NCBI GenBank assembly: GCA_007280345.1
Contig: QYQD01000026.1
Span: forward strand, 1 to 44,905
Direction of reading: 5' to 3'
Source of the DNA: Deltaproteobacteria bacterium
Lineage (GTDB): Bacteria > Desulfobacterota > QYQD01
Length of the DNA: 44,905 nucleotides
Below, piece after piece: positions 93 through 24,126 of this stretch. How positions within the stretch are numbered: the stretch's first letter is position 1; each line of letters begins with the position of its first letter. The position numbers and the translations under genes were made by a program. The notes beneath the pieces are model-generated. The model was not told the origin of the DNA. It did not search any database and was given only the letters and a program-made list of their open reading frames with translations.

Positions 93-188
93 AAAGGCAG
101 GGGTCAAGAAATCCGAATTTGTTGTAGTCCTATTCGCTAACCGCTATGCGCTATACGCTATACGCTATACGCTATCTTTTGCTATACA

Positions 189-938: not shown

Positions 939-1276
939 CTCAAATTAATCAGGACGCTCGCCTGAGGAGGACCGATATCCGCAGAAAAATATTTTCTACA
1001 TTTAAAATCTTGACAATCTGCGTCCAACATGAATAGTAATTCACTTCTTCGCTAATTCATTAATACAATATCTATGCCAAAAGTTGGATAATATCCCAGA
1101 TTGGAAAATATATTAGCCATATCCACAGGTTATGATTATACGGGATTCTCAAGACTAGGATTAGAAAGTTAAAGAAAGAGAAAAGAAATGCCATCTGAAT
1201 GGAAAAATACTTCCACTCTATGTGTAAAGTTTTTCACATCGAAATTCTCCTGCTCACCGCAAAGGCGTAAAACAAG

Positions 1277-2149: not shown

Positions 2150-2165
2150 TGTGGATGTATTTATA

Positions 2166-2188
2166 CGCAGGCTAAAGCCTGCGGCTAC
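2166..2188. repeat. Dispersed palindromic repeat CGCAGGCTAAAGCCTGCGGCTAC, copy 1
   Basis: Exact 23-bp reverse complement of 7869-7891. Contains hairpin GCAGGC-TAAA-GCCTGC. Confidence 0.85.
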
Positions 2189-2211
2189 CCGCTATTCGCT
2201 ATACGCTATAC

Positions 2212-2931
2212 TCAAACCGCCTTTACATAAATATCATGTACGATCTCCGGATCGACCGCTACCGTAGTCTCACCTACCTGTATAATAGGGGAAGGCTTCT
2301 TCTGCCGCAGCTTGATTATACTTCCCGGTACCACACCCAGGGCGCTCAATTTATCCAGCCTGGCCGGAAAATTGGAAGAAATAAAGACAATCCGCCCTTC
2401 TCCGCCCGGATCGAGGTCGCTAAGGGGCATGACCAGGGGCTTTACACTCTTTTCAGGGGCTGTGCAGCATTTTCCTGGTGGAATAGGTTTGCCGTGCGGA
2501 CAGACCGGAGGATGGCCAAGGAAAGTGCAGACACTATCCGTAACCTCCGGGCTCAAAATATGCTCCAATTTACACGCCTCTTTCTCTGCCTCCTCCTCCG
2601 AAAGCTCAAATATCTCCATAAGCAGCCTCTCGGTCAAACGGTGTCTGCGTATAATCCCACGGGCCTTTTCCTCTCCTTTTTCTTTGAGATAGACCTTATC
2701 CCCTTCCCTGGCAAAAAGTCCTTCCTGCTCCATGTAGGAGAGTATATTCCTGGCCTCAGGGTCCGATGCCTCGCTCTGGAGATCGGCCAGGTTTGAAACG
2801 CCGTTTTCACGCAGGTTCCAGATAAATTCCAGCAGTTCATCGATGGCCCGGTCACGGGTTTCTGCTTCCCTGTGACAAAATGGCCCCCGGATATGACAAT
2901 GTGGTTTTCTCTTTCCCCATTTAAATTTCAT
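2212..2931 (-). CDS. DtxR-type metal-dependent regulator fused to a C-terminal FeoA domain
   Basis: wHTH plus dimerisation region (LTERLLMEIFELSEEEAEKEACKLEHILSPEVTDSV), then a FeoA/SH3-like tail (LDPGGEGRIVFISSNFPARLDKLSALGVVPGSIIKL…). Adjacent to feoB. Confidence 0.85.
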   Translation of the reverse strand: MKFKWGKRKPHCHIRGPFCHREAETRDRAIDELLEFIWNLRENGVSNLADLQSEASDPEARNILSYMEQEGLFAREGDKVYLKEKGEEKARGIIRRHRLTERLLMEIFELSEEEAEKEACKLEHILSPEVTDSVCTFLGHPPVCPHGKPIPPGKCCTAPEKSVKPLVMPLSDLDPGGEGRIVFISSNFPARLDKLSALGVVPGSIIKLRQKKPSPIIQVGETTVAVDPEIVHDIYVKAV

Positions 2932-3027
2932 AGGTACCTCCCTGCGAATAGCGTATAGCGTTTAGCGGGTAGCGTTCGGCGAAACGAGGAATTCTTTTAT
3001 TTTTAGCTTAACGCTGATCGCTTACAA

Positions 3028-5019: not shown

Positions 5020-5545
5020 CTGAAAATCCCCCTGTATCCCCCTTTTCCAAAGGGGGAATATGATGGTGCCCCCCTTTACTAAAGGGAGGTGAGGGGGGAT
5101 TTTTCTCTTTTTTCAAGCAATCCGCACATGCACCGTATATCTCTAATCTGTGATCTTTGATAGCGAAATGATGGCGTGCCGCTATCTCCTCCTGCATCTT
5201 TTCGATGCGGTTATCCGTGAATTCAAGTATCTTCCCGCAGGAGATACATATCAGATGGTCATGATGCTCTCCCTGATCAACATTCTCATAACGGGTCTGT
5301 CCATCGGCAAACTTCCTCTCCACCGCCATCCCGCACTCTGTCAGCAGTTTTAGGGTTCGATAGACGGTGGTATAACCTATCCGGGGATTGAAGCGGGCCG
5401 CATGCCGGTAAAGCTCATCTAAGTTTACATGGCCCTTTATACTGAAAAAAATCCGGGCTATCTCATCCCGCTGACGTGAAGACTTGAGCTTCTTCTGGGC
5501 AATATATCCTTTAAGGACACCCTGCTTTTTATTAACAGCTTTCGT
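4997..5545 (-). CDS. fur: Fur-family metalloregulator; the start codon is unresolved
   Basis: The listed ORF (4997-5329) starts inside the gene. The frame stays open upstream and encodes …LKSSRQRDEIARIFFSIKGHVNLDELYRHAARFNPRIGYTTVYRTLKLLTECG, with HHDHLICISCGKI and CADC downstream. No in-frame ATG/GTG/TTG exists between 5329 and the upstream stop; 5545 is a candidate ACG preceded by GGGAGGG. Confidence 0.8.
   Translation of the reverse strand, partial: TKAVNKKQGVLKGYIAQKKLKSSRQRDEIARIFFSIKGHVNLDELYRHAARFNPRIGYTTVYRTLKLLTECGMAVERKFADGQTRYENVDQGEHHDHLICISCGKILEFTDNRIEKMQEEIAARHHFAIKDHRLEIYGACADCLKKEKNPPSPPFSKGGHHHIPPLEKGDTGGFSDEKAGKK
5023..5105. repeat. Dispersed inverted repeat (AAATCCCCC…CCTTTTCCAAAGGGGG…CCCCTTTACTAAAGGGAGG…GGGGGGATTT), copy 1
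   Basis: Same architecture as 6129-6205 and 11224-11301. Lies in the 3' end of fur, next to feoB. Confidence 0.85.
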
Positions 5546-5583
5546 GGAAACGCCCTCCCTTCACCTGCAAGCCTCCCCTTAAA

Positions 5584-5606
5584 ATGAAAATGAATTTCAT
5601 TTTCAT
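5584..5606. promoter_or_regulatory. Fur box upstream of fur-feoB
   Basis: ATGAAAATGAA-T-TTCATTTTCAT, a perfect 11+1+11 palindrome resembling the GATAATGATAATCATTATC-type Fur site. Confidence 0.8.
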
Positions 5607-5744
5607 AATCTATTTAAGACATCCTCCGGGTCTTGTCAAGGGAAATAAGCGCTGGAATATTGGGTGTTGACTTTTATCCACAATTAACTTAGCTATAAGG
5701 GCCTATAGCGTTACCTTAAATCCCAGACTTAACCAGGATAAGAA

Positions 5745-5912
5745 ATGCCCTGTAAGACATGCGGCGGCCAGCTCTCCATCGTCAGGACCTGAAGGGACGT
5801 AATCCTGCGCTGCAAGGATTGCGGCCGCAAATATACAGTTAAAGAACTGCTTGGCGAACTGGATGAAGATTTACTGGAGCGGATCGCCATGATCCGGTGT
5901 GACCGGGTCTAA
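5745..5912 (+). CDS. Small dual-CXXC protein, putative selenoprotein (TGA at 5790-5792 read as Sec)
   Basis: MPCKTCGGQLSIVRT-U-RDVILRCKDCGRKYTVKELLGELDEDLLERIAMIRCDRV*. One in-frame TGA sits between two CxxC motifs; a 9-bp stem-loop follows at 5798-5823. Confidence 0.75.
5798..5823 (+). promoter_or_regulatory. Putative bacterial SECIS stem-loop
   Basis: CGUAAUCCU-(GCGCUGCA)-AGGAUUGCG: 9 pairs with one G-U, starting 5 nt after the UGA. Confidence 0.55.
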
Positions 5913-5916
5913 TCCC

Positions 5917-6075
5917 ATGAATAGCCCGAAGACCAAAAACAACCTGCCGGTAATCCCTTCCAAGCTAAAAAACGCCCCTAATCCTTCAAATGCCGCAAAA
6001 TTTCTCGACGTTATAAAATCAGACCTCGCCCGGAATATCTATAATAAATATGGCGTTGTCCCTCACTTCGTATAG
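5917..6075 (+). CDS. Small ORF (52 aa), 4 nt after the selenoprotein stop; unknown function
   Basis: MNSPKTKNNLPVIPSKLKNAPNPSNAAKFLDVIKSDLARNIYNKYGVVPHFV*. Too short for the ORF track. Confidence 0.4.
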   Translation: MNSPKTKNNLPVIPSKLKNAPNPSNAAKFLDVIKSDLARNIYNKYGVVPHFV

Positions 6076-6128
6076 TTTTAGCAAACACTGTCTAAAAATA
6101 GAGTGTTGTTTTATACCAAGTTGCGTTC

Positions 6129-6205
6129 AAATCCCCCTTAATCCCTCTTTTTCAAAGGGGGATATAATCTCCCCCTCTTTGTAAAGAGGGGTCAGGGGAG
6201 ATTTT
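6129..6205. repeat. Dispersed inverted repeat, copy 2
   Basis: AAATCCCCCTTAATCCCTCTTTTTCAAAGGGGGATATAATCTCCCCCTCTTTGTAAAGAGGGGTCAGGGGAGATTTT. Confidence 0.85.
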
Positions 6206-6268
6206 ATCAGGTAATCCTCCACACTATTCCCGGAAGAACTCAATATTTTCTGTAATTTGGACGGAGGA

Positions 6269-6991
6269 TTAGGAGGCTTGTTTTATCTCTTCAATTATAC
6301 GACGGGCAGCTTCTTGAGGATTTTGGGCGGTTCGGATAGGTCTTCCCACTACTATATAATCGGCGCCATTAAGAATAGCCTCCCGGGGAGTGACAATCCT
6401 TCTCTGGTCATCATCGGATGTAACACTCCAGGCCGGCCGTATGCCGGGGGTAACGATGAGAAAATCCCTTCCTAACCGTTCTCTTATAGCCTTAACTTCC
6501 TGACCGGAAGATATGACGCCGCTGCATCCCGCTTCTCCGGCTACCATGGCCCTCTGCACCACAAGGCAGGAAACATCATCGATAAACTCCCCGGCCAAAC
6601 CCTGGACAGCGAGATCATCTCTTCCTATACTGGTCAGAAGGGTTACTCCAAGTACCTTTGTCCCGGCGCCGGTAGCTATGGATATGGCCCCGGCCAGACG
6701 TCTGCCCGTATCACAGTGAATGGTCACAAAGTCAACGCCGTATCCGGAGATAACGGATAAGGCCCTTTTTACCGTCTCCGGTATGTCGTGGAGTTTCAGG
6801 TCGAGAAAGATTCCGGCCTCTGTCTCTTCTTTGATCTTCTTCAGGATAGAAGGGCCTTCCGCGATAAACAACTCCAGCCCGATCTTAAATACACCAACTG
6901 TACCGGCAAGAAGACGTACGTATGTCGAAGCCTCTTTCCAGGAAGGGAAGTCCAGAGGAAATATGAGCCTGTCTTTGGGGGTTAGAGACAT
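6269..6991 (-). CDS. pyrF: Orotidine 5'-phosphate decarboxylase
   Basis: LDLKLHDIPETVKRA, FVTIHCDTG, IVTPGIRP, ADYIVVGRPI. Confidence 0.95.
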   Translation of the reverse strand: MSLTPKDRLIFPLDFPSWKEASTYVRLLAGTVGVFKIGLELFIAEGPSILKKIKEETEAGIFLDLKLHDIPETVKRALSVISGYGVDFVTIHCDTGRRLAGAISIATGAGTKVLGVTLLTSIGRDDLAVQGLAGEFIDDVSCLVVQRAMVAGEAGCSGVISSGQEVKAIRERLGRDFLIVTPGIRPAWSVTSDDDQRRIVTPREAILNGADYIVVGRPIRTAQNPQEAARRIIEEIKQAS

Positions 6992-7099
6992 AATTTCACC
7001 GCAAGACGCCCCAGTACGGTCGGTTCCTCCCTACGGGGCAGGCAAAGGGCGCAAAGTTTAATTCTTTTGTCATATTACAAGGTGTCTCTTTTATCTATC

Positions 7100-7894
7100 T
7101 TAATATCCTTTCTTCAAATACAGGAGAAATTCTCTATTGCCCTTGGCGCCCAGAATGGGCGACTCAATAAGACCTATGGGAATCAGGCCGATGTCTCCCG
7201 CAAATGTCTGTATTTTTTCAGTCGACTGCATCTGAAGCGCCGGGTCACGGACTATGCCCCCCTTCCCCACCTGTCCTTTTCCAACCTCAAACTGAGGTTT
7301 AACCAGCGCTACTATCTCCGCCTGCTCTTTTAGCAGGGTAACGACTACCGGGATAACCTTGGTCAGGGAAATAAAGGATACGTCTATGACCACTATGTCC
7401 GCTTTTTCGCCTATGTCTTCCGGCCCCAAGTAACGAATATTTTTTCGCTCCAGAGATATGACGCGCTCATCCTGTCTAAGCTTCCAGTCGAGCTGCCCAT
7501 ATCCCACGTCTATGGCATAGACCCGCCGGGCCCCATGCTTCAGGAGGCAGTCCGTAAACCCGCCCGTCGAGGCCCCGACGTCAATAGCCACCCTGCCCTG
7601 GATGTCTATACCAAAGGCCTTTATGGCCTCCTCTAACTTTAGACCGCCCCGGCTGACATACGGTATGTCAGGCTCTTTCAATAAGATATAAGCATCCACC
7701 GGCACCATAGCCCCGGCCTTGGTTACCGGGACCCCATTAATCAGAACCGATCCCGCCATTATCAGGGCCCGGGCCCGCTCCCGACTCGAAACCAGACCTT
7801 GATCCACAAGTATCTTATCCAGCCTCTGTTTATGGAGATGTTTTGACAGGCGTTCAGCCATCAGCTTGGTAGCCGCAGGCTTTAGCCTGCGCAT
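7100..7894 (-). CDS. tlyA: TlyA-family rRNA (cytidine-2'-O)-methyltransferase / hemolysin A (start probably Met at about 7861)
   Basis: S4 domain RLDKILVDQGLVSSRERARALIMAG; VAIDVGASTGGFTDCLLKHGA; VKPQFEVGK. Confidence 0.93.
   Translation of the reverse strand: MRRLKPAATKLMAERLSKHLHKQRLDKILVDQGLVSSRERARALIMAGSVLINGVPVTKAGAMVPVDAYILLKEPDIPYVSRGGLKLEEAIKAFGIDIQGRVAIDVGASTGGFTDCLLKHGARRVYAIDVGYGQLDWKLRQDERVISLERKNIRYLGPEDIGEKADIVVIDVSFISLTKVIPVVVTLLKEQAEIVALVKPQFEVGKGQVGKGGIVRDPALQMQSTEKIQTFAGDIGLIPIGLIESPILGAKGNREFLLYLKKGY
7869..7891. repeat. Dispersed palindromic repeat, copy 2 (GTAGCCGCAGGCTTTAGCCTGCG)
   Basis: Exact reverse complement of 2166-2188. Confidence 0.85.
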
Positions 7895-9891
7895 TAGCCT
7901 TTCAGTAAAGATAAACCGGCCTCGGCTATGGATTCCGCAGTCAAGCCATATCTCTCGCGAAGCTTCTTTTGACTGCCATGCTCCACAAAACGATCCGGGA
8001 TGCCTATTCGTTTTAAGGGCTTATTTAGGATATGACGGCGTTCAAATAGTTCCAGGATGGCACTGCCGAATCCACCGTCCAGGACGTGTTCTTCTACGGT
8101 CAACACGGCCTTGCTTCGTTGAGCCCTTGAGACGATAAGTTCCTCGTCCAGGGGCTTTACAAACCGGGAGTTGACCACAGCGGCGCTAATCCCTGATTCT
8201 GCCAGTAACTTTGCGGCTTGAACAGCCGTATTGACCGTGACCCCGATCGCCAGTATCAAAATATCGTCGCCTTCCCGTAAAACTTCGGCCTTGCCGATCG
8301 GTATGACGTTCAGGCGCTGATCCAGGGGGATGCCCTCACCGGCTCCCCTCGGGTAGCGCACGGCGGCCGGACCCGGATGTTTAACGGCCGTATAAAGCAT
8401 ATGCTGGAGTTCATTCTCATCCTTAGGGGCCATAACTACCATATTAGGCAGGTGCCGCAAGTAGGCAAAGTCGAAGAGCCCATGATGAGTAGGCCCGTCT
8501 TCGCCTACAATTCCACCCCGGTCCAGGGCAAAAGTTACCGGTAAATTAGAAAGGCAAACGTCATGGGCTATCTGGTCATAGGCCCTTTGCAGGAAAGTGG
8601 AATAGATAGCCACAACCGGTGACAGGCCCTCCGAGGCCAATCCGGCCGCAAAGGTCACGGCATGCTGTTCGGCGATACCCACGTCAAAAAATCTCTCAGG
8701 AAATTTCTCGGAGAAATCATTCAGCCCGGTGCCCTCCGGCATGGCCGCAGTAATAGCCACAACTTTTTTATCTTCAGACGCCAGTCTTATGAGCGTATTT
8801 CCAAAGACCTTGGTGTAACTCATAGGAGAGTTGAGGTTGACTTGAATCTCCCCGGTCTCAATATCAAAAGGTCCCACGCCATGGTAAAGGTCTGGCCTAT
8901 CCTCGGCTGGTTTGTACCCCTTGCCTTTTTTTGTCAATACATGCACCAGCACCGGTCCCTCAAGATGTTCCAGGTTGCGTAAGATCGGGATGAGTTCTCC
9001 AAAATCATGACCGGAAATGGGGCCGATGTATTCAAATCTCAGGGCCTCAAAGAGCATCCCGGGCGTGAAAAATCCCTTGAACGATTCCTCTACCTTCTTA
9101 AGGACATGGATTATATTCTCTCCCACCCCGGACAGTGATTTCAGCCTCCGCTCCACGTCTTTCTTAAACCTTACCATGGTGCGTCCGGTGAGTTTGCGGC
9201 TGAGATACGCCGAGAGGGCCCCGACATTCTTGGATATCGACATCTCATTGTCATTCAGGATAACGATCAGGTTCTTATCCAGGTGTCCGGCCTGATTCAA
9301 TCCTTCGAAGGCCAATCCGGCGGTCATAGACCCATCACCGATGACGGCAATAACCTTGGCCTTTTCTCCTTTAAAGCATTTAGCCGCCGTGATGCCTAAC
9401 GCCGCTGAAATGGAGGTGCTGCTATGGCCGGCGTCGAACGCATCATAGGCGCTTTCGGCCCGTTTAAGAAAGCCGCTGATTCCTCCATCCTGGCGCAGGG
9501 TGTGAAACCGGTCCCGGCGGCCGGTGAGGAGCTTATGGGCATAGGCCTGATGGCCCACATCCCAGATGATCTTGTCGCGCGGAGTATCAAAGACATAATG
9601 CAGGGCGATGGCCAGTTCCACAGTCCCAAGACTTGAGGCCAGGTGGCCGCCATTCTTAGAGACCGTTCGGATTATCTCTTCCCTTATCTCCTGGGCCAGA
9701 AGGGTTAGTTGATTCTCGTTGAGGGACTTCATGTCTGCCGGGCTATTAATGCGAGGGAGTATCGGAGATATAATCACTTCCGCCTCCTTTTCATCGTCGA
9801 TCGGCCTGCCTTTAGCGGAGGGTGTTTTTACCCGCTTTTGAGAGACACCTTGCTTCAAATCCATCCCCTGTGCTACCGCCATCTCTCCCAC
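7894..9891 (-). CDS. dxs: 1-deoxy-D-xylulose-5-phosphate synthase
   Basis: [63 protein letters not shown]. Confidence 0.97.
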
Positions 9892-10030
9892 CTACCCTTG
9901 ACGGCTTCGTAAAAAAGTCTTTTCACCGCTGAGCACGCAGAGTCCGCAGAGAAAAACTGTAAACCATTCAATATGTTATCTCAGCGTCCTCGGCGACCTC
10001 TGCGGTAAACTTTTACTTTTTACGAAATCA

Positions 10031-10921
10031 TCACTTTTTTCTATCTAAAGTATAGTGGGCTATGGCCCGAAGGGGCTCAGCCTCGGCCCCAAACCCACGC
10101 AGGCTATCTATGGCCTCTTCAACGAGCCTACCGGCTATGCCCCTGGATTCCTCAAGCCCATAAACAGATGGATAGGTAGCCTTCTTTTTTCTTATATCAC
10201 TACCCGTAGCCTTACCCATCTCTTTTGGATCACCCTCGACATCCAGAATATCATCAATTACCTGAAAAGCCAGTCCCAGGGCCTCTCCATAACGCCCTAA
10301 CGCCTTTATCTTATTCCGACGGCCGCCCGCTATCAAGGCCCCGGCTTGAATCGAACCGGCGATAAGGGCTGCGGTCTTATGCGTATGAATGTACCGGACG
10401 GTCCCGGCATCCGCGTCTTTACCTTCGGAAGCCATATCCACAACCTGGCCGCCCACCATACCGTGCACTCCCGCGGCCCGGGCTATCACCTGGGTGGCCT
10501 CGATGGGATTGGACTTACGCCTCCCCGCATTATGTGAGACGCCGGACAGTAGTTGAAAAGCAAAAGTAAGAAGGCCGTCACCGGCCAGTATGGCCATAGC
10601 CTCTCCAAAGACCTTGTGGCAGGTTGGCGCCCCGCGACGATAGTCGTCATCATCCATAGCCGGCAGGTCATCGTGAATGAGCGAATAGGTGTGAATACAT
10701 TCCAGGGCACAGGCCACAGGTAACGCCTGTTCTATATCTCCGCCCATGGCCTCGCAGGCGGCCAGGCACAGGATTGGCCGCACCCGTTTGCCCCCCGCAA
10801 AAACGCTGTAGCGCATAGCCCGCATAACTTCCCCGGCCGGACCTTCTTCCTTTGGCAGGTATCTATCCAGGACCTGGTCAACCAACGCCCTGCGCTCAGC
10901 AATATAGGTCTTTAAATCCAC
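10031..10921 (-). CDS. ispA: Polyprenyl (farnesyl/geranylgeranyl) diphosphate synthase
   Basis: GGKRVRP, IHDDLPAMDDDDYRRG, FQVIDDILD. Confidence 0.95.
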   Translation of the reverse strand: MDLKTYIAERRALVDQVLDRYLPKEEGPAGEVMRAMRYSVFAGGKRVRPILCLAACEAMGGDIEQALPVACALECIHTYSLIHDDLPAMDDDDYRRGAPTCHKVFGEAMAILAGDGLLTFAFQLLSGVSHNAGRRKSNPIEATQVIARAAGVHGMVGGQVVDMASEGKDADAGTVRYIHTHKTAALIAGSIQAGALIAGGRRNKIKALGRYGEALGLAFQVIDDILDVEGDPKEMGKATGSDIRKKKATYPSVYGLEESRGIAGRLVEEAIDSLRGFGAEAEPLRAIAHYTLDRKK

Positions 10922-11179
10922 TTACACATTCCCTTCCGACTCAAAGGGCTTGGTCAATAACTTACCGCCTTCGCCTTTTACCAGAAGTTCAATCTTCTTC
11001 TCTGCTTCATCAAGTTTACGGAGACAAAACTGTGAAAGTTTAACCCCTTCTTCAAATTTTTTCAACGATTCTTCGAGAGATAGATCGCCGGCCTCCAGCG
11101 CCCGGACGATCTCTTCTAACTTCTGCATGGCCTCTTCAAAATTCTCTTTGCCCATTAGACCCCCCCAGAAAAATCTCAA
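10922..11179 (-). CDS. xseB: Exodeoxyribonuclease VII small subunit (start probably Met at about 11155)
   Basis: FEEAMQKLEEIVRALEAGDLSLEESLKKFEEGVKL. Confidence 0.95.
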   Translation of the reverse strand: MRFFWGGLMGKENFEEAMQKLEEIVRALEAGDLSLEESLKKFEEGVKLSQFCLRKLDEAEKKIELLVKGEGGKLLTKPFESEGNV

Positions 11180-11223
11180 AATTGAGATTTGGTATCAGTT
11201 TAGCTGTTTGAAAGAGTATTCTT

Positions 11224-11301
11224 AAATCCCTCCCAACCTCCCTTTTCCAAAGGGAGGAGAAACACTTCCCCCTTTGGAAAAGGGGGATTGAGAGGGATTT
11301 T
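11224..11301. repeat. Dispersed inverted repeat, copy 3
   Basis: AAATCCCTCCCAACCTCCCTTTTCCAAAGGGAGGAGAAACACTTCCCCCTTTGGAAAAGGGGGATTGAGAGGGATTTT. Confidence 0.85.
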
Positions 11302-11372
11302 GGCTCTTATAGCGCCTTGCTTAGGCATATTTTTCAAAAACCTAAAGTGTTACAAGATTTGAAATTTGAAAT

Positions 11373-12281
11373 CTATTTGTCAGCAATCATAGCCGTGGCC
11401 TCGATGAGGGATAGCGGGTCCACCCTTGCGCCACAAATAACCGCGCCCCAGTGCAGATGCGGCCCGGTAGCCCTTCCTGTAGCCCCTACTTCTCCAAGTG
11501 AATCTCCTTTGGCCACCTGCTGCCCTTCTTTCACCGCCGCTTTTGAGAGGTGACAGTATATAGTAAACACCCCCTGGCCATGATCCAAAATAACCGTACT
11601 GCCCAGGAGATAAAAATCACCGGCCAGTGCTATACGTCCACTGTTCGCACAACGGATCGGCGTCCCCTCTGTTCCCCGGATATCAACACCCAGATGACGA
11701 CTGCGCTCCTCGCCGTTTAAGATGCGCCTGCTGCCGAATAAACCGACGATATCACCCGCCACGGGTTTAATAAAACCTCCGTTCCAGAGCAGAGACGCGC
11801 TGGTTTTCTCAAAAACCGCATCTACGGCCTTCTTTTCGTCTTGTATGCGCTTAAGTATTTCCTCTGGAAACGTAACCATCTTTTCAGGCAAGGTAAGTTC
11901 CTCTACAGGAAACTCATAGGGTTGCACCTCCACCTGGATGGTTATCACCTTCTTTGTACCATGATGGACGTGCTGATACTCGATGGTGAGCGGATATTTC
12001 CCCGGCGGTGTGGATATGTCCACCGGTAGTAAGGCCGTCAGTCTTCCCAAACCGGGGTGAAAATAAACCGGACGACCAAGAAAGGCGCCCGCCTTAGGCG
12101 GGGTAGCAGGTACATCGCTAATAGAAAAGAGACCTACCTGCCCTATGGCCAGCTTAGCCGGGTGGAGGCTCCAGACGTGACTTTCATCGGCATAAGAAAC
12201 CGTCCCCGAAAAACCAATCGCCAGGAAAAAATAGAGAACAAAAATAAGCGCTTTCATTCCATCACCTTTTCCACCCGGCAA
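11373..12281 (-). CDS. M23-family metallopeptidase, secreted (start probably Met at 12257, ATGA-coupled to xseA)
   Basis: RHLGVDIRGTEGTPIRCANSGRIAL…VILDHGQGVFTIYCHLSK…GATGRATGPHLHWG. Confidence 0.93.
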   Translation of the reverse strand: MPGGKGDGMKALIFVLYFFLAIGFSGTVSYADESHVWSLHPAKLAIGQVGLFSISDVPATPPKAGAFLGRPVYFHPGLGRLTALLPVDISTPPGKYPLTIEYQHVHHGTKKVITIQVEVQPYEFPVEELTLPEKMVTFPEEILKRIQDEKKAVDAVFEKTSASLLWNGGFIKPVAGDIVGLFGSRRILNGEERSRHLGVDIRGTEGTPIRCANSGRIALAGDFYLLGSTVILDHGQGVFTIYCHLSKAAVKEGQQVAKGDSLGEVGATGRATGPHLHWGAVICGARVDPLSLIEATAMIADK

Positions 12282-13594
12282 AACAATTTTCCTTTAGAAA
12301 GCCCCACCCTGACCTGGGAATTAATGGCTACGTCTTTTGTATCGCGCAGGATTTTTCCATCCGGCCATAATTCGGTTATGCTGTAACCCCGGCCAAGGAT
12401 GGCCAGAGGGTTAGCGCCTTCCAGACGGGCCGCGAGTTCCCGGAAGCGGGCATCCTGCTGCGCCAGATGCTGCCCTGTTTTTACCTCTAATTCTCTTCTT
12501 AAGGTATCCACTCTGAACCGGGCCGTCCGTATCTGTTCACGTGGATGGCGCTCCCCAAGGCGAAGGAGATAGCTGTAGAGCAAGCGGTGCAGGCTTTGTA
12601 TCTGACTTAAAAGATTATGCCTCATCTCCAGGCAGAAAGTATCTACCTTCAGACGGCCGTCCTGAATGCGGCCCCTTACCCTGGCCAATCTCGTTATAAA
12701 ATGGGCCAGCCTTTCTTTAAAAAGGGCGTGTTCTCTCCCCGCCGCCCTGGTAAGACGGAGCTGCAACATGCCGATCTGATAACTTAAATCATCCTTTTTG
12801 GGCACGACAAGTTCGGCCGCAGCCGTAGGGGTAGCCGCCCGGATATCGGCCACAAAATCGGAAATAGTAAAGTCGATCTCATGCCCCACTGCGGAGACTA
12901 CCGGAATTTTCGAGGTAGAAATGGCCCTGGCCAGGACCTCCTCATTAAAGGCCCAGAGATCCTCAAACGACCCGCCGCCGCGAGCCAGTACTATGACATC
13001 TATACCCTTCAACCTATTAAGGCCAAAAATGGCCTCAGCCATCTCCTTCGCCGCTCCTTCACCCTGCACGCGGGTGGGATATACGAGAATATTCACATTG
13101 GCGAAACGGGCGCAGGCCGTGCGCAGGAAGTCATAGAGGGCCGCGCCGGTAATCGAGCTTATGACGGCTATACGGTCAGGGAGTAGGGGCGGTTTCTTTT
13201 TCCGCTCTGCGGCAAAAAGGCCTTCCTTTTCCAGCCGTTGCTTGAGCTGGAGAAAGGCCTGCTGCAAGGCGCCAACCCCTCTTGGCTCCATGTGGTCAAT
13301 GATGAGCTGGTATTCCCCGCGTGCCTCATAAACGCTAACGCGTCCCTGGCAGACTACATACATCCCGTCTTCCGGTTGAAAACGGAGATAGCGCCTGTTA
13401 ATCCTGAAGAGCACGGTCTTTATCTGGGCGGTTTCATCTTTTAAGGTGAAATACATGGTACCGGACGAGATCTCGCGCAGATTTGATATTTCACCTTCTA
13501 CCCAGACAAAGGAAAAATTGGCCTCGACCAGGAACTTAATCGACTGCGTTAAGGCGGAAACGGTTAAAACCTTCTTTTCCGGTCTCTCGATCAT
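12254..13594 (-). CDS. xseA: Exodeoxyribonuclease VII large subunit
   Basis: OB domain FSFVWVEGEISNLREISSGTMYFTLKDETAQI; IAVISSITGAALYDFL; LARGGGSFEDLWAFNEE; SAVGHEIDFTISDFVAD. Confidence 0.96.
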   Translation of the reverse strand: MIERPEKKVLTVSALTQSIKFLVEANFSFVWVEGEISNLREISSGTMYFTLKDETAQIKTVLFRINRRYLRFQPEDGMYVVCQGRVSVYEARGEYQLIIDHMEPRGVGALQQAFLQLKQRLEKEGLFAAERKKKPPLLPDRIAVISSITGAALYDFLRTACARFANVNILVYPTRVQGEGAAKEMAEAIFGLNRLKGIDVIVLARGGGSFEDLWAFNEEVLARAISTSKIPVVSAVGHEIDFTISDFVADIRAATPTAAAELVVPKKDDLSYQIGMLQLRLTRAAGREHALFKERLAHFITRLARVRGRIQDGRLKVDTFCLEMRHNLLSQIQSLHRLLYSYLLRLGERHPREQIRTARFRVDTLRRELEVKTGQHLAQQDARFRELAARLEGANPLAILGRGYSITELWPDGKILRDTKDVAINSQVRVGLSKGKLFCRVEKVME

Positions 13595-16605: not shown

Positions 16606-17456
16606 GAATCATGGTCCTGGGAGCGGCCGGTATGCTTGGCGCCGATGTCGTCAGAGTTTTGGCCGATGTACGCCCCGGCGCATCTACGACTCACCAGGTA
16701 CTACCGCGCACCCGCAATGACTGGGATATAACTGACCCCATGGCCTGCCGGGCAGATATTACCGCCATAAAGCCTGATGTGGTCATAAACTGCGCGGCAT
16801 TTACTAAGGTAGATGACTGCGAAAGCCGGCCGGATAAGGCATTTTTGGTCAATGGCGAGGCGGTAAAACATATTGCCGGGGCCTGCCAGACAGTCAATAG
16901 CCGCCTTATCCAGATCAGCACTGATTATGTCTTCGACGGCGCAAAAGGCGCGCCTTACCGGGAGGAAGACACACCTAACCCCATCAACGTATATGGCCGG
17001 TCCAAATTAAAGGGCGAAGAATACGCCTTGAAAATCGAAGGCTCCCTGGTTATTCGCGCCTCCTGGCTCTATGGCCGGAACGGCCCTAATTTTGTGGATA
17101 CCATCCTTCACCTGGCAAAAGAGAAGAAGACACTTACCGTGGTCGATGACCAGTTCGGGTCTCCTACTTATACCTCTGATCTGGCCGGGGCTATCGCCAA
17201 GCTGGTGCAAAAAGAATTGACCGGCATCATCCATATAACCAATAGCGGCGTCTGCTCCTGGTATGAATTTGCCCGGGAGATCTTGAAAATTGCCGGCAAA
17301 GAGGATGTCTCTGTTGCGGCCATAAAAACTACGGTAATAAATCGCCCGGCGAATCGGTCTCAGTTCTCTGCACTCGATAATAGCCGTTATATCTCTATTA
17401 CCGGTCAGCCTCTCCGACCCTGGCCGGAGGCGCTGGCTGAGTACCTTGTCGGATAG
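16518..17456 (+). CDS. rfbD: dTDP-4-dehydrorhamnose reductase (start likely about 16602, overlapping the end of rfbB)
   Basis: IMVLGAAGMLGADV; INCAAFTKVDDCE; ISTDYVFDGAKGAPYREED. Confidence 0.92.
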   Translation: MVAPGQKRQVQTVLPENVRSEAGRRQEAVRIMVLGAAGMLGADVVRVLADVRPGASTTHQVLPRTRNDWDITDPMACRADITAIKPDVVINCAAFTKVDDCESRPDKAFLVNGEAVKHIAGACQTVNSRLIQISTDYVFDGAKGAPYREEDTPNPINVYGRSKLKGEEYALKIEGSLVIRASWLYGRNGPNFVDTILHLAKEKKTLTVVDDQFGSPTYTSDLAGAIAKLVQKELTGIIHITNSGVCSWYEFAREILKIAGKEDVSVAAIKTTVINRPANRSQFSALDNSRYISITGQPLRPWPEALAEYLVG

Positions 17457-17485
17457 AAGCCGGGGGTTTGTTTTATTATTAGGCG

Positions 17486-17587
17486 GTGCGTGAGTTAGGT
17501 ATGACTCTGACTGATTTAGCCGGGCAAATGGGAATGAGTGCGCCGGCGGTAGAAAGGATTTTGAGCAGTCGAATCTATCATCAGTGA
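17486..17587 (+). pseudogene. Fragment resembling the C-terminal HTH of a REP-associated tyrosine transposase (RAYT)
   Basis: VRELGMTLTDLAGQMGMSAPAVERILSSRIYHQ*, with no catalytic region upstream. Followed directly by palindromic REP-like sequence. Confidence 0.5.
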
Positions 17588-17588
17588 G

Positions 17589-17634
17589 GTTCACCCCGTT
17601 GAATTTCCCTAAGGGAACCCTATTCAACAGGGTG
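17589..17634. repeat. Inverted repeat (TTCACCCCGTTGAA…TTCAACAGGGTGAA) with inner TTCCCTAAGGGAA
   Basis: 14-bp arms with one mismatch, immediately after the RAYT-like fragment. Confidence 0.7.
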
Positions 17635-17682
17635 AAGAGATTAGGCCGAAAGGAGTTCCTGCCAGAAGGAATGACCCTTGCC

Positions 17683-17777
17683 GTAGGAGCAGCATCCCTG
17701 CTGCGATAAGACTCAGTCGCACTGCCCGCCCGCCATCGCTTTCGCTCAGGCGAAGCGGGCGGGGAAGGTGCTCCTAC
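17683..17777. repeat. REP/BIME-like element bounded by GTAGGAGCA…TGCTCCTAC
   Basis: Perfect 9-bp outer arms; inner hairpins GCAGCA-TCCC-TGCTGC and CCGCCCGC…GCGGGCGG. Confidence 0.75.
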
Positions 17778-17839
17778 AGAAGAGGCATGAAATTAACATC
17801 CAGTAAAATAGACGGTGGATTTGGGTGGCCATTTCCCCC

Positions 17840-17868
17840 TTGACACACCATCGCCTTCTTCCTATACT
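17840..17868 (+). promoter_or_regulatory. Sigma70-like promoter for the five-gene operon
   Basis: TTGACA, 17-nt spacer, TATACT; 84 nt upstream of the first operon ATG. Confidence 0.7.
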
Positions 17869-17952
17869 CTCTCATCAAAAAAGCGAGTTCTTATCAAAGA
17901 AACAAGGGGGTATGAGGAAACAAACAGTCAGTAAATTCGCAAAGGAAGGGAA

Positions 17953-18750
17953 ATGGAAAACGTCTGTACTAACAGTCTCGAAAAGGCTCTTGCTAAGACG
18001 GAAGCCGATGTTGATGCAACATTAAGGGCCGCGGTTGCAGTCGTCAGATCCTTAAAAAAATTTCGCGTCGCAACTCAAACAGGAAACCTCCGTGAATTGA
18101 GCAAAACAATAGAATCCGCAGAACAGGCGATCGCTGCGCTGAGACAACAATTTACAAATACCAAGGAGGTATGGAATTTCGATAGTGAAAATTATATTGC
18201 CAGCAGGGCATTTCCTGAAGAGCTTCTGGAGATGTCCAAATCTTTGGGAGTAAAAATCTTTGAACAGGACGAACGACTATACTGTTATCCTTTTCTCATC
18301 CGCATCCTGCCTAATGAACTTGCCGTCCAAATTGATAAGACCAGAGAAAAGCGTTTACAACCATCCACCCTTGTTAATCACCTTAAGGCATTACAAAATA
18401 AGCCTGTAAGATTCAGACCGGAGACGTTTCTGGAAAGTCTTTTCTCGGCATATGAAACTCTCATAAAAAGTCGCGGGAAGGATCACGTAGGCAAGGGAAT
18501 CGTGATAACCCTTCTTGAAATTTACAGATTATTAACCCTTCTACCGGGGCAGGCCAAGGAATATTCGCGTCAGGAATTTGCGCGAGATATTTATCTTCTT
18601 GATCGCAGCGGTGTAACAACAACAAAAAGGGGGGTTGTCGTCAGCTTTCCGGCGAGTACGGGTACAAGATGGACCACAGGCACTATTCGCGTCATTACAC
18701 AGGAAGGCCAGGACAAACGATATTACGGTATTTCATTTTCAGAGGCTTAG
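17953..18750 (+). CDS. Uncharacterised protein A of the putative defence operon (265 aa)
   Basis: RBS-like AAGGAAGGG upstream; N-terminal helical region (LEKALAKTEADVDATLRAAVAVVRSLKKF…SAEQAIAALRQQF). No family recognised. Confidence 0.85.
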   Translation: MENVCTNSLEKALAKTEADVDATLRAAVAVVRSLKKFRVATQTGNLRELSKTIESAEQAIAALRQQFTNTKEVWNFDSENYIASRAFPEELLEMSKSLGVKIFEQDERLYCYPFLIRILPNELAVQIDKTREKRLQPSTLVNHLKALQNKPVRFRPETFLESLFSAYETLIKSRGKDHVGKGIVITLLEIYRLLTLLPGQAKEYSRQEFARDIYLLDRSGVTTTKRGVVVSFPASTGTRWTTGTIRVITQEGQDKRYYGISFSEA

Positions 18751-18762
18751 GAGGCATAAACC

Positions 18763-19764
18763 ATGTCCTACATCACACAAGATGAGTGGCTAGATACGAT
18801 TCGTGGGGAGTATTTGTATGATTTCATTAAACGCGGTGGCGCAGCCGTAAAATTTGTAGTTCCTATGGAAGATGATGACCATAACCAATTACTTAATCTG
18901 CTGCGTAAAACTTCAGAAGAGGAAAACTATTTTTTTACATCCGTCAATGCCGTGTCAACCAAGATTCACATGATTGATAAGTTGTTTCACAAGGTAGCTC
19001 GGCAGATTGATTGGGATGAGTTGTCTCATTCATTTGTAAAAAAAATATTTACGCAAAATGGGTATGAGCTGCCACAGCAACGTGAAGATTTCAATCTTCA
19101 GAATATCGCCGCAATCAATAACCGGGAGGAAAAATTTTTACGAAGGGAAATGCATTCATGGTTTGAAAAAGAAATCTTTCGCGATTTTGAAATGAGCCAG
19201 GAATTCAGAATCGCTATGATGCGCCTCTGTTTAGATCAGCTTGACACCACAGGACCGACCACATTTTTAAGCAATGCTGTTAAAGAATGGCTTGGGGGCG
19301 AACTCCGGTTGATTTCAACATTGAAGGAAGCGCTCATCTTTCAAAAAATTGCGCGGCACAATGCCCGGCATATGTTGTTTTCACTCGCCCACTGGTTGAG
19401 GGTCAACGGGAAGAGTGGTCTTGTACTTGTGCTCGACATCACTCGCTATCTTATTTCAACAAGATCGAAGAATCCTGATGATGGCTTTTTCTATTCAATT
19501 CCTGCCGTGCTCGATGCCTATGAGGTTCTTCGCCAATTCATTGATGGAACGGATGAAATGGAGGGCTGTCTGATTGTGGTTTTTGCATCAAAGGACTTTC
19601 TGAATGATGACAAGCGGGGTTTAAACCGTTATGATGCTCTAAAATTGAGGGTCTGGGATGAAGTCAGAGACAGGCAAAGACAAAATCCTCTGGCGTCTTT
19701 AATACGCCTGGCAAATAATAAAACAGCCTCAGTCCATCAAGTGTTAAGGGAGGTGCAAAGATGA
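18763..19764 (+). CDS. Uncharacterised protein B; ATPase-like but with no recognisable Walker A motif (333 aa)
   Basis: Walker-B-like GLVLVLDITRYL, then EVLRQFIDGTDEMEGCLIVVFASKDFLNDDKRGLNRYDALKLRVWDEV. Its end overlaps gene C by 4 nt (ATGA). Confidence 0.8.
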   Translation: MSYITQDEWLDTIRGEYLYDFIKRGGAAVKFVVPMEDDDHNQLLNLLRKTSEEENYFFTSVNAVSTKIHMIDKLFHKVARQIDWDELSHSFVKKIFTQNGYELPQQREDFNLQNIAAINNREEKFLRREMHSWFEKEIFRDFEMSQEFRIAMMRLCLDQLDTTGPTTFLSNAVKEWLGGELRLISTLKEALIFQKIARHNARHMLFSLAHWLRVNGKSGLVLVLDITRYLISTRSKNPDDGFFYSIPAVLDAYEVLRQFIDGTDEMEGCLIVVFASKDFLNDDKRGLNRYDALKLRVWDEVRDRQRQNPLASLIRLANNKTASVHQVLREVQR

Positions 19765-21029
19765 ATATCGACGAACAAGTGAAAAATCGGCGTGCCATAG
19801 AAGCGCTACGTAATGGTGTGCCGAACCGTGATGCTGTTGCGGTGTTAGGATGTAATCAACCGGAAATAGAAGATAAATTTCGACGACAACTTCAAAATAC
19901 AAGAGATATGATTACCGATGGAAGACCAAACGAAGGGATGCTGGTGGCAGGTGACTTTGGTTCTGGAAAATCACATCTCCTGGAATATCTGATGCACCTT
20001 GCTCTGGAGCAGAATTTTGTGTGCAGTAAGATTGTCATCAGTAAGGAGACCCCCTTATTTGATCCAGCAAAATTATATCGTGCTGCGGCTGAAGCTGCAA
20101 TTGTACCAGGTAAACGGGGCGGCGCTATGACCGAAATTGCAACTGCTTTGAATCCTAACCACACCGCCTACAAGGATTTTTATCTATGGGTACATCAGAG
20201 AGCCGGTCTTAATTCGAGATTTGCCGCAACACTGTTTTTATATGAAAGAATGCAAAATGATCCCGAATTCAGTAACCGCATTATCAGATTTTGGTCTGGT
20301 GATAAAATTGGTTCAGGTGAGATAAGAAAATATCTCAAGGCATGCCGGGAACCGGTAACCTATAAGATTGACAACATTCCGGCGAAAGAACTTGCGTTAC
20401 AGAGGTTTAAGTTTGCTGCTCGTTTAATTGTTGCAGCCGGTTATGCTGGTTGGGTCCTACTGATTGATGAAACGGAATTGTTAGCTAAATACTCACTTAT
20501 GCAGAGGGCAAAATCTTATGCAGAATTGGCGCGATGGATGGGGAAACTGGATGAGTCTAATTTTGCAGGATTGACGGTCGTTTTTACTATAGCCCATGAT
20601 TTTGGAGAAAAAATCATGATGGAAATTAATGACTTAGAAAAGGTACCTGGCCGATTGAGAGCGAAAGGAACAGAGAATGACCTTCTATTGGCAAGCCAAT
20701 CAGAGAGAGGAATGCGCTTGATTCAAAAAGAATTTGAACTTTTAAAAGGGCCAGACGAAACAACATTAAATCAAACATATGAAAGGGTACAATCCATACA
20801 TGCACAAGCATATAATTGGTCTCCACCGCCGGTACAATCTATCGAACGTTTACGTAGTAACAGAATGCGTCAGTATGTAAGAGGTTGGATAACCGAATGG
20901 GATCTCAAGCGTCTTGACAGCGGATATACGCCGGAAATTGAGGTTACAAAACTTGAGCAAGACTATACCGAGGATAAGAATTTAGAGGTTGAAACGGAGG
21001 GAGGATCGGATAGCAACAACCTTAACTAG
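19761..21029 (+). CDS. BREX BrxD-like / DUF2791-type ATP-binding protein (protein C)
   Basis: RRAIEALRNGVPNRDAVAVLGCNQPEIEDKF; Walker A GDFGSGKSHLLEYL; Walker B WVLLIDETELL; C-terminal MRQYVRGWITEWDLKRL. Confidence 0.88.
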   Translation: MNIDEQVKNRRAIEALRNGVPNRDAVAVLGCNQPEIEDKFRRQLQNTRDMITDGRPNEGMLVAGDFGSGKSHLLEYLMHLALEQNFVCSKIVISKETPLFDPAKLYRAAAEAAIVPGKRGGAMTEIATALNPNHTAYKDFYLWVHQRAGLNSRFAATLFLYERMQNDPEFSNRIIRFWSGDKIGSGEIRKYLKACREPVTYKIDNIPAKELALQRFKFAARLIVAAGYAGWVLLIDETELLAKYSLMQRAKSYAELARWMGKLDESNFAGLTVVFTIAHDFGEKIMMEINDLEKVPGRLRAKGTENDLLLASQSERGMRLIQKEFELLKGPDETTLNQTYERVQSIHAQAYNWSPPPVQSIERLRSNRMRQYVRGWITEWDLKRLDSGYTPEIEVTKLEQDYTEDKNLEVETEGGSDSNNLN

Positions 21030-21191
21030 GAGCCTGTCGGACTTAGGGGATCGTCACGAGGGAAGTGGGAGGACAAGCCAAAATGTTCACGAATTTGAGG
21101 CACATAGTGGAGGCTATGTAACGAAAATTCGGGGATATTTGGGCGTCCTCCCACTTTCCGCAGTAGATTATCATAAGTCCGACAGGCTCCT
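21028..21191. mobile_element. MITE-like palindromic element, 164 bp, perfect 18-bp terminal inverted repeats
   Basis: AGGAGCCTGTCGGACTTA (21028-21045) and TAAGTCCGACAGGCTCCT (21174-21191). Interior also self-complementary: GGAAGTGGGAGGAC/GTCCTCCCACTTTCC and CATAG-TGGAGG-CTATG. Confidence 0.75.
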
Positions 21192-21220
21192 GGGTCTAGA
21201 CATTCGGGAGGTCACTTGAA

Positions 21221-21778
21221 ATGCCGATTCCCTATCGTGATGCCGATGAACTAAGCGATTTAGGAATAGCAGGATATCTCAGGATTCAGCCTGCACAGGA
21301 AGGATCCGGCTATCTGGCTGCGCTCTTTTTGATCAATGCGCGCGGCGAGCCGATAGAATTTACGTATAACAGAATAGAAACTCCTCACACCTTCCTTTGG
21401 CGACAGGCGGATATCCGCCGCCATGCCACAAGAAAATTGACTGCGTCGCTTCTCTCCTTATGTCCGAAAACACCACGATTGATACTATGCCTCGCTGAAG
21501 AGATAGGCAGCGAACTTTTCTGTCAGGATATTCAATTGTCAGTTCCAGTCTGCCGGATTGCGCCAGCAATTAAAGCCCTTCCTTATTCAGCAACCGAAAT
21601 CCAGGATAGGATCGAAGTAGAAGGACCAATGAATCTCTTTTGGTATCCGGGAAGACCGGCTGACGATGCAATTGAATTAAAGCTTTTACACGAATTGGCA
21701 GTGCATGGTTTACTTACAGAGCCTTTCGAGCGAGCATTAATTGGACTTCGGGAAGTCTATTCAGATAAAGGTGAATGA
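21221..21778 (+). CDS. Uncharacterised protein D of the putative defence operon (185 aa)
   Basis: MPIPYRDADELSDLGIAGYLRIQ…; stop overlaps the start of gene E (ATGATGA). No family recognised. Confidence 0.85.
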   Translation: MPIPYRDADELSDLGIAGYLRIQPAQEGSGYLAALFLINARGEPIEFTYNRIETPHTFLWRQADIRRHATRKLTASLLSLCPKTPRLILCLAEEIGSELFCQDIQLSVPVCRIAPAIKALPYSATEIQDRIEVEGPMNLFWYPGRPADDAIELKLLHELAVHGLLTEPFERALIGLREVYSDKGE

Positions 21779-24000
21779 TGACCGGAGTTGCGATTTGGTG
21801 GAAAGAACGGAACATTGATCATGTCCCGTTGGCACGCTGGTTTGGCGTTTTTAGACGTCCGGTTAAACTTAGCGGCCATATCCCACAAAAGCTGTCTGTA
21901 CCGCCATTATTTCTATCTGCGCCGGATTACTTATCAGCATCTGATGACAGCATTCCGCCCCTGCCCATTTCATTAATTGTCTCATGCGCCTTAAATACAC
22001 CAGCTAATCTCATTACCGATTGTAAACATCCAGATGAGCATTTCCACGGTAGTGTCGGCCTCAACGGCATTCTTTTAAAAGGGGAACAGACTGGCCCAAA
22101 GTCAGCAAAGCAGATACGATCAGACTTAGTAGCTCATCCTTTGGAGGATGTGAGTCATGATGCGGATGCTGAAATCCCACTTTCAAGAAGGTTAGCTTAC
22201 CTTCTCCAACCACCAACTGACTTTTTGCTCTCAAAGCTCGGACCCTTGGAATGGCCAGCAGCGCTGTTCGACTATCAAATTGAAGGAATAAAAACCCTGC
22301 TGTCAAGAGACGCCTTGTTGCTTGCAGATGATATGGGGCTCGGTAAGACAATTCAGGCGATAGGCGCCCTAAGAATACTTTTTCTTCAAAGTCTCATTGA
22401 ATCTTGTCTATTAATCGTCCCAGCAAGCCTTATCGGACAGTGGCGAAAAGAGATTCACCATTGGGCTCCGGAACTACGTGTCTCTACCATTCGTGGTATA
22501 ACGACAGAACGAACATGGCAATGGGCAACACCTGCTCATATTTATCTCACGAGTTATGAAACCTTCCGATCTGATTGTACGGACCATGCTCAATCACCTC
22601 CCCGCCGCTGTGTGTGGGACGTTGTCATTCTTGATGAAGCTCAAAAAATAAAAAATCGGGATGTAGAAATCAGCCGTAAATGTAAACTTTTGCATCGAGC
22701 ACGGGCATGGGCGCTTACAGGCACACCGCTTGAAAATCGGGAAGATGATCTTGCCTCAATTCTCGAATTTGTAACATCTATGAAAGAAGGTGAAACACCT
22801 CCACGGTTCAACCCAGGCTTAGAGCTCCAAGAAAAACATAAGTCTTTACAGCTTCGCCGGAAAAAACATGATGTGCTCCCTCAACTTCCGCCTAAAATAG
22901 TAAGTCAAATATCGTTAACAATGGATGTCAAACAACGCAAATATTACGAGCGGGCCGAAAAAGAAGGCATTATCCAACTTAAGGAAAGTGGCGAGTTTGT
23001 TCGCATAGAAAATGTTCTCGCACTCATTATGAAATTGAAACAGATATGCAATTTTTGTCCATCTTCAGGGGCGTCAGTTAAACTTGACGATGTCCTGGAA
23101 CGTTTAAATATTCTCGCATCTGAGGGATATCGTGCACTAATATTCTCACAATTCACGGATTCACTGTACGGGGCGCATGCCATAGCATCAAAGCTCGAAT
23201 CCTTTAACCCACTTCTTTATACTGGTGACTTATCCGCAAGACAGCGAGATGAGATCATCAGTACCTTCAAAAAAGATCAAGATCATAAAGTTCTCATTCT
23301 TTCCCTCCGTGCCGGGGGACAAGGGCTTAATTTACAGGATGCTTCGTATGTTTTTCATTTTGATCGCTGGTGGAATCCTGCCGTTGAGCATCAGGCTGAG
23401 GGCAGAGCACACCGTCTGGGCCAAACCTTTCCTGTTCACATTTATAAGTATACTATAGGAGATACGATTGAGGAACGGATCGAGAAAATATTGGTGGAAA
23501 AACAGCTGCTTTTCGATGAGTTGGTGGACAGCGTTTCGATTGACTTAAAATCAAAACTATCAGGCGAAGAACTATTTGGTTTGTTTGGTTTGGTCCCGCC
23601 AGAATATTTAAAATCGTCAAAACGCAAATCGGCATTCACAGGAAGTTACACTGATATGAGTGGCGTGGAATTTGAGGAACATGTGAAAGGGCTATTGGAA
23701 CGAAAGAAGTGGCGGGTGGAAACTACTTCTTTGACACGCGATGGAGGTGTTGACCTCATCGCCCGACGAGACGACGATATTGGTTTAGAGATAACCCTTT
23801 ACATTCAATGCAAAAATCATGCAGCTCCCGTAGGCGTTGACGTGATAAGAGCGTTAAGGGAAGTAATGCCGAAGGATGTTACTGGCACAAGAGGCGTTGT
23901 AGTTTGTCCGAGCGGCTTTTCGACTGACGCAATAAATTTTGCCAAAGACCGGGGCATTGCCCTCTGGAATCGGCATCATCTTTTTGAATTATCCGAATAA
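21775..24000 (+). CDS. SNF2-family helicase fused to a C-terminal Mrr-type restriction endonuclease domain (protein E)
   Basis: LADDMGLGKTIQAIGAL, VILDEAQKIKN, LTGTPLENR, GGQGLNLQDASYVFHFDRWWNPAVEHQAEGRAHRLGQ; C-terminal GVEFEEHVKGLLERKKWRVETTSLTRDGGVDLIARR…LYIQCKNH. Confidence 0.95.
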   Translation: MMTGVAIWWKERNIDHVPLARWFGVFRRPVKLSGHIPQKLSVPPLFLSAPDYLSASDDSIPPLPISLIVSCALNTPANLITDCKHPDEHFHGSVGLNGILLKGEQTGPKSAKQIRSDLVAHPLEDVSHDADAEIPLSRRLAYLLQPPTDFLLSKLGPLEWPAALFDYQIEGIKTLLSRDALLLADDMGLGKTIQAIGALRILFLQSLIESCLLIVPASLIGQWRKEIHHWAPELRVSTIRGITTERTWQWATPAHIYLTSYETFRSDCTDHAQSPPRRCVWDVVILDEAQKIKNRDVEISRKCKLLHRARAWALTGTPLENREDDLASILEFVTSMKEGETPPRFNPGLELQEKHKSLQLRRKKHDVLPQLPPKIVSQISLTMDVKQRKYYERAEKEGIIQLKESGEFVRIENVLALIMKLKQICNFCPSSGASVKLDDVLERLNILASEGYRALIFSQFTDSLYGAHAIASKLESFNPLLYTGDLSARQRDEIISTFKKDQDHKVLILSLRAGGQGLNLQDASYVFHFDRWWNPAVEHQAEGRAHRLGQTFPVHIYKYTIGDTIEERIEKILVEKQLLFDELVDSVSIDLKSKLSGEELFGLFGLVPPEYLKSSKRKSAFTGSYTDMSGVEFEEHVKGLLERKKWRVETTSLTRDGGVDLIARRDDDIGLEITLYIQCKNHAAPVGVDVIRALREVMPKDVTGTRGVVVCPSGFSTDAINFAKDRGIALWNRHHLFELSE

Positions 24001-24025
24001 GTTTGCATATTCATTCTAATACGGA

Positions 24026-24073
24026 ATACGTCCTTAAGTAATTAAGCAACATCGGTCAAAAATAAGGACGTAT
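24026..24073. repeat. 11-bp inverted repeat ATACGTCCTTA…TAAGGACGTAT
   Basis: Perfect arms at 24026-24036 and 24063-24073, between the operon end and the mgtA-like gene. Confidence 0.7.
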
Positions 24074-24126
24074 GGACAGATGAAGTATTAAATGTAACCG
24101 CCTATCATGCTATCCAGGAGCAAGAA

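Follow-up and report, generated by a model that had tools for sequence, protein, structure and literature searches.

The 44,905-nucleotide contig QYQD01000026.1 of a Deltaproteobacteria bacterium (assembly GCA_007280345.1; hereafter the window) carries at 17953–24000 five intact genes, called as open reading frames in one orientation and forming a single operon, which we designate A to E. The same five genes recur in the same order in other genomes and are inherited as a unit. Their genomic context suggests that this cassette is probably an anti-phage machine. A more specific reading, to which we give about even weight, is that it is a mobile defense system in which a module of ATPases resembling ORC/Cdc6 gates an exchangeable DNA motor/nuclease.

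Co-occurrence and spread of the five genes

Relatives of the cassette were sought by a scan seeded with D only, using one genome per species across 85,462 species, most of the genomes compared being metagenome assemblies. The scan returned 21 loci in 20 other genomes, and annotation with hidden Markov models (HMMs) showed that 18 of these loci carry A-B-C-D-E in order on a single strand, the set being either complete or interrupted by nothing other than a contig end. C is directly upstream of D in 20/21 loci and E directly downstream in 20/21. This co-occurrence is far beyond chance. The original prediction, made from the window sequence alone, asked whether the five genes occur together across unrelated genomes, and they do; the contrary outcome, A, B, and D found apart from C and E elsewhere, was looked for and did not occur. 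Individual loci depart from the standard arrangement: two partial copies lie in tandem (L031), D-E occurs with C not immediately upstream (L028), one locus is too short for A and B (L033), and one lacks E and has only a truncated D (L035).

The hosts comprise Thermodesulfobacteriota, other deltaproteobacteria, Nitrospirota, Bacillota, and Chloroflexota. In a tree of concatenated A-B-C sequences, the window copy groups with one Nitrospirota and one Thermodesulfobacteriota copy, next to Bacillota, and this mixed-phylum grouping points to horizontal transfer. Four genomes of the same genus (L174–L177), in which the P-type ATPase is 90–95% identical to that of the window, lack the cassette; synteny stops at 17447–17450 and restarts at 24087–24100, and about 0.3–0.55 kb of other DNA occupies the site. 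Given the grouping in the tree and the absence from the orthologous site, the cassette therefore moves as a unit. Its GC content is 0.445, compared with 0.507 and 0.472 in the flanks, and its distribution is patchy, with the cassette found in 6/297 sampled genomes of its own phylum and in 12/301 and 8/348 genomes of two others. Phage or viral carriage was rejected, as relatives of A and D were not found in IMG/VR and a match to C was not found in phage records. On plasmids, no direct match to A or C was found, only distant relatives, via C of the superfamily 1 (SF1) type.

Proteins encoded by the cassette

C had been described in the original prediction as a BrxD-like ATPase with intact Walker motifs, and both its match to the Pfam family BrxC_BrxD (PF10923; Table 1) and its motifs (Walker A GDFGSGKS, Walker B VLLIDE) agree with this. 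What had been overlooked is that B, too, is a BrxD-like ATPase, in degenerate form: it matches the same Pfam family and the PADLOC BrxD model (6e-14), KFVVPMEDDD stands in place of Walker A, and the Walker B region reads LVLVLDI. On these motifs B is a paralogue of C, predicted to be catalytically dead, so that of the predicted "ATPases" in the plural only C is of the active type. Both proteins score under the NCBIfam BREX_BrxD cut-off of 350 bits (C 70.0, B 49.4), and their PADLOC matches to SngB (C 1.6e-9, B 6.9e-5) are each weaker than the match to BrxD, compared with 4e-177 for a true SngB. BrxD has been classed as an ORC-Cdc6 AAA+ ATPase, and it has been suggested to load or activate its helicase (PMC12839542).

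The reading of E as a SNF2 helicase with an Mrr-type nuclease was upheld by Pfam domains (SNF2-rel_dom 2.2e-47, Helicase_C 1.1e-21, Mrr_cat 5.1e-24) and by the SNF2 motifs DDMGLGKT, DEAQ, and EGRAHRLGQ; the catalytic D (DGGVDL) and the QxK motif (QCK) of Mrr_cat are both present. Among the 20 E homologues readable to the relevant point, with the split L024 copy counted as one, 11 have the Mrr domain and 9 do not. Cutting by E is therefore not essential family-wide, and, judged from this distribution, the Mrr nuclease is dispensable within the family. Downstream of one Mrr-less E (L029), a pPIWI-associated nuclease gene begins after 21 nt; this composite locus (134–12545) consists of a DUF1156 methyltransferase, a phospholipase D (PLD)-SNF2 helicase, A-B-C-D-E without Mrr, and the pPIWI-associated nuclease gene.

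D has no match in PADLOC, Pfam, or NCBIfam scans. A model built from 21 sequences (predicted local distance difference test score, pLDDT, 82) was compared with the PDB using Foldseek and resembles Endonuclease V (EndoV; 6ozf_B, E 2.8e-6, probability 1.0, template modeling score 0.58), with a weaker resemblance to domains of UvrC and PIWI. In a profile comparison with seven EndoV proteins, sequence-level similarity was not found, and the link of D to EndoV therefore rests on predicted structure. Strand beta-1 (aa 16–24, AGYLRIQP, placed on the predicted model), where an active EndoV/RNase H nuclease has a catalytic acid, shows no conserved acid across the 21 homologues. D is therefore predicted to be a non-nuclease, and its candidacy as an active nuclease was rejected; it probably has an EndoV-like fold that is catalytically dead, resembling EndoV in predicted fold but differing in the missing acid.

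A is present in every complete locus and has no relative, TerB included, in the PADLOC, Pfam, and NCBIfam scans. Its predicted model (pLDDT 85.8) gave no significant structural match in the PDB or among viral structures.

Table 1. Coordinates of the cassette genes and associated features in the window
Feature	Position	Strand	Description
A	17953..18750	+	265 aa; long helical hairpin, then mixed alpha/beta region; no family match
B	18763..19764	+	333 aa; BrxD-like AAA+, Walker A lost (predicted pseudo-ATPase); Pfam PF10923, E 2.3e-13
C	19761..21029	+	422 aa; BrxD-like AAA+; Walker A aa 64-71, Walker B aa 232-237; PF10923, E 8.2e-26
D	21221..21778	+	185 aa; predicted RNase H fold of the Endonuclease V type, probably without catalytic activity
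E	21775..24000	+	741 aa; aa 167-549, SNF2 helicase core; aa 627-739, Mrr_cat nuclease domain at the C-terminal end
Candidate sigma-70 promoter	17840..17868	+	TTGACA-17-TATACT, 11/12 consensus
MITE-like palindrome	21028..21191	.	164 bp, C-D spacer; passenger, outside the system proper
Mobile cassette, approximate span	17448..24095	.	Missing in four same-genus genomes (synteny)

The predicted operon layout, with a 12-nt A-B gap and ATGA overlaps at B-C and D-E, is present in the window. The dedicated promoter that had been proposed is present as an 11/12 match, but matches of at least 9/12 are common by chance (13 found, compared with a shuffled mean of 10.9), and the promoter is therefore only plausible. 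The original prediction had missed an inverted repeat that occupies most of the C-D gap, with C and D intact on both sides. This element, which resembles a miniature inverted-repeat transposable element (MITE), has the terminal repeat AGGAGCCTGTCGGACTTA and an RNA fold z of −12. A further copy in this genome matches it at 95%, the own-genome copies lying on contigs C145, C69, and C41. The insertion might have lowered D and E expression in this strain. The cassette is flanked by genes for rhamnose synthesis, an Mg P-type ATPase, and a two-component system.

The A-B-C triad in other loci

Searches for A revealed that A-B-C also occurs without D-E, with A found in 30/113 genomes of one Bacillota order. 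The view that A, B, and D are additions to an ATPase-helicase set thus gave way to one in which A-B-C forms a broader triad pairing with several motors; judged from these loci, it is an older triad that would work with each of them. The triad lies within clustered regularly interspaced short palindromic repeats (CRISPR)-Cas operons of type I-B (L133 6442–10495) and an I-D-like type (L130 5209–9242), where C ends 8 nt and 2 nt from cas1, respectively, and within an I-D locus with an 85-copy array (L080 8840–13406). It also lies inside the type I operons of L078 (I-B) and L079 (Cas8a/Cas7a), and in L132 it adjoins a protein that looks, by eye, like Cas6. Most of these triads belong to a single Bacillota order, and together they form one clade; the independence between CRISPR subtypes is therefore modest. 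It is possible that these divergent A-B-C sets are an accessory module of type I CRISPR-Cas, and its placement next to cas1 in some of them hints at an additional part in CRISPR adaptation or priming. No paper on BrxD-like triads linked to CRISPR was found in the literature searched, whose coverage is partial.

Elsewhere the triad stands beside BrxL (L081 and L128), with an XPB-like helicase (L070 and L126), and, in about 13 loci among L136–L149, with an SF1 helicase of 860–890 aa (AAA_11/AAA_12, MkoA-like). On plasmids of Desulfomonile tiedjei (pDESTI.01) and Aulosira laxa (plasmid3), A-B-C forms operons with a BrxHI/SngC-like DEAD helicase (L153 3870–9296 and L155 3890–9284). The C Walker A/B motifs are kept across all readable triads. 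B has lost Walker A in both the SNF2 branch and the CRISPR branch but retains it in the other sampled branches, the XPB-linked L070, positioned inside the SNF2 branch, being an exception; the motif was likely lost twice independently. The triad tree, several deep branches of which are long and uncertain, clusters largely by partner, with 13 partner changes compared with 31 in shuffles, and partners are therefore rarely exchanged. We tentatively propose, at somewhat less than even confidence, that A-B-C is a general DNA-handling module which several unrelated immune systems, type I CRISPR-Cas included, have recruited for loading or licensing the motor that each of them uses (SNF2-Mrr, Cas3, SF1, DEAD, or BrxL), and that the window represents one branch, in which a dead EndoV-like protein serves as an adaptor.

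Several further arrangements were observed. The SF1 helicase of L136–L149 (~870 aa) is conserved, carries a topoisomerase-type zinc ribbon, and follows the triad, or precedes it in L149; B and C are both intact in these loci, which have the appearance of a separate system. The Aulosira laxa plasmid triad comes directly after a PglZ-BrxD-helicase set. In three Nitrospirota loci (L123, L124, and L125), the next gene after A, or each of the next two, encodes a ~760–780-aa protein in which a long N-terminal extension precedes a C-like BrxC_BrxD domain. In L082 (624–10509), A-B-C is followed in the same direction by a 437-aa unknown protein, a DnaK-like protein, and two more unknowns.

Relation to known systems and proposed mechanism

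No model in PADLOC (2023 version, which later-described systems could escape), Pfam, or NCBIfam places the five-gene set in a known system. The proposal of a distinct set related to the BrxD/Shango ATPases is thus sustained for that release, as is the predicted absence of PglX/PglZ and TerB near the locus in family scans of the flanking genes. Judged by gene content, the cassette is not bacteriophage exclusion (BREX), Shango, or Zorya. BREX type 2 combines BrxD and BrxHI with PglX, PglY, PglZ, and PglW; the cassette likewise pairs a BrxD-family ATPase with a helicase, but none of the six neighbors on each side is a BREX core gene. The sole PglZ match in the same genome is weak (contig C202:7488–7640, in a 788-aa frame) and unlinked to the cassette. 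E shares a SNF2 helicase with ZorD of Zorya type I, DpdE, and DrmD of DISARM, and ZorD also has an Mrr-like nuclease, but E scores 156.2 bits against the NCBIfam ZorD cut-off of 1500, family scans show no relation of A–D to ZorA/B, and ZorC is missing. The DUF499 BREX-Related (Hma) systems combine an AAA+ ATPase with a SNF2 helicase that in many cases carries a fused PD-(D/E)XK nuclease (PMC12839542), but their ATPase is of another family. The window has no methyltransferase, while the L029 copy has its DUF1156 methyltransferase and PLD-helicase directly upstream. ARMADA was set aside, as it is built on YprA helicases and none occurs at the window locus.

In the mechanism that we favor, A, B, and C would probably form one AAA+ complex of the ORC/Cdc6 type, with C as the working ATPase, B as a catalytically dead subunit, and A as a tether to DNA or a partner. 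D would probably sense a DNA feature or bridge the complex to E, which as the motor would be loaded or licensed on invading DNA by A-B-C-D and then translocate, its Mrr domain being the probable effector that cuts DNA. A role as loader or gatekeeper is consistent with what the triads show, namely one ATPase that stays active throughout, a paralogue that is dead in some branches only, and a motor that differs between them. Near some copies lie type I restriction-modification genes, a DUF1156 methyltransferase with a PLD-helicase, or a YprA-like helicase. Several observations weigh against a defense system of this kind: housekeeping neighborhoods surround several copies, the window copy itself is flanked by genes for rhamnose synthesis and for a P-type ATPase, outside any defense island, the operon has no methyltransferase as a self/non-self marker, and 9/20 readable E homologues lack Mrr.

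Shango consists of a TerB protein, the SngB ATPase, and the SngC helicase (PMC10250203). Like Shango and BREX type 2, the cassette couples a BrxD-like ATPase to a DNA motor; as in Shango, the operon is compact and its ATPase gene precedes that of a superfamily 2 helicase, and SngB appears homologous to B and C. The cassette could accordingly be a Shango-type system acting in a Shango-like manner, with A substituting for TerB and the helicase swapped for SNF2-Mrr, and the plasmid operons with a SngC/BrxHI-like helicase might be intermediates. We consider this unlikely: Shango has a single ATPase, whereas here there are two paralogues. The cassette also differs from Shango in that one of the two is apparently dead and in its additional EndoV-like D. 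SngC is not among the 25 best PADLOC matches of E, a true SngC scoring 1e-268. A as a TerB protein was ruled out, since comparing 64 A sequences with the TerB proteins of two Shango loci by hhalign gave a probability of 0.2% and A has no fold match to solved structures. Modification-dependent (type IV-like) restriction, in which Mrr would let E recognize modified DNA, with the ATPases in a purely assisting role, is consistent with the intact QxK of Mrr_cat and with an operon that has no methyltransferase, but is quite improbable, as the Mrr-less E homologues retain A-B-C-D and Mrr fusions are common to many other systems. Least probable of all is a DNA repair or chromosome-maintenance cassette, which the housekeeping flanks and the occurrence of SNF2, AAA+, and EndoV-like parts in repair proteins would suit, but which is at odds with the patchy, horizontal spread, the absence from four same-genus genomes, and the related triads within CRISPR and BrxL loci.

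To our knowledge, BrxD-type ATPases have no established role, helicase loading being so far a proposal in the literature. The retention of one active and one variably dead ATPase while the motor varies makes that proposal directly testable, and the A-B-C triad ties BREX/Shango-like defense to CRISPR. A and D represent two protein families missing from the libraries searched, and may be used as probes for more such systems.
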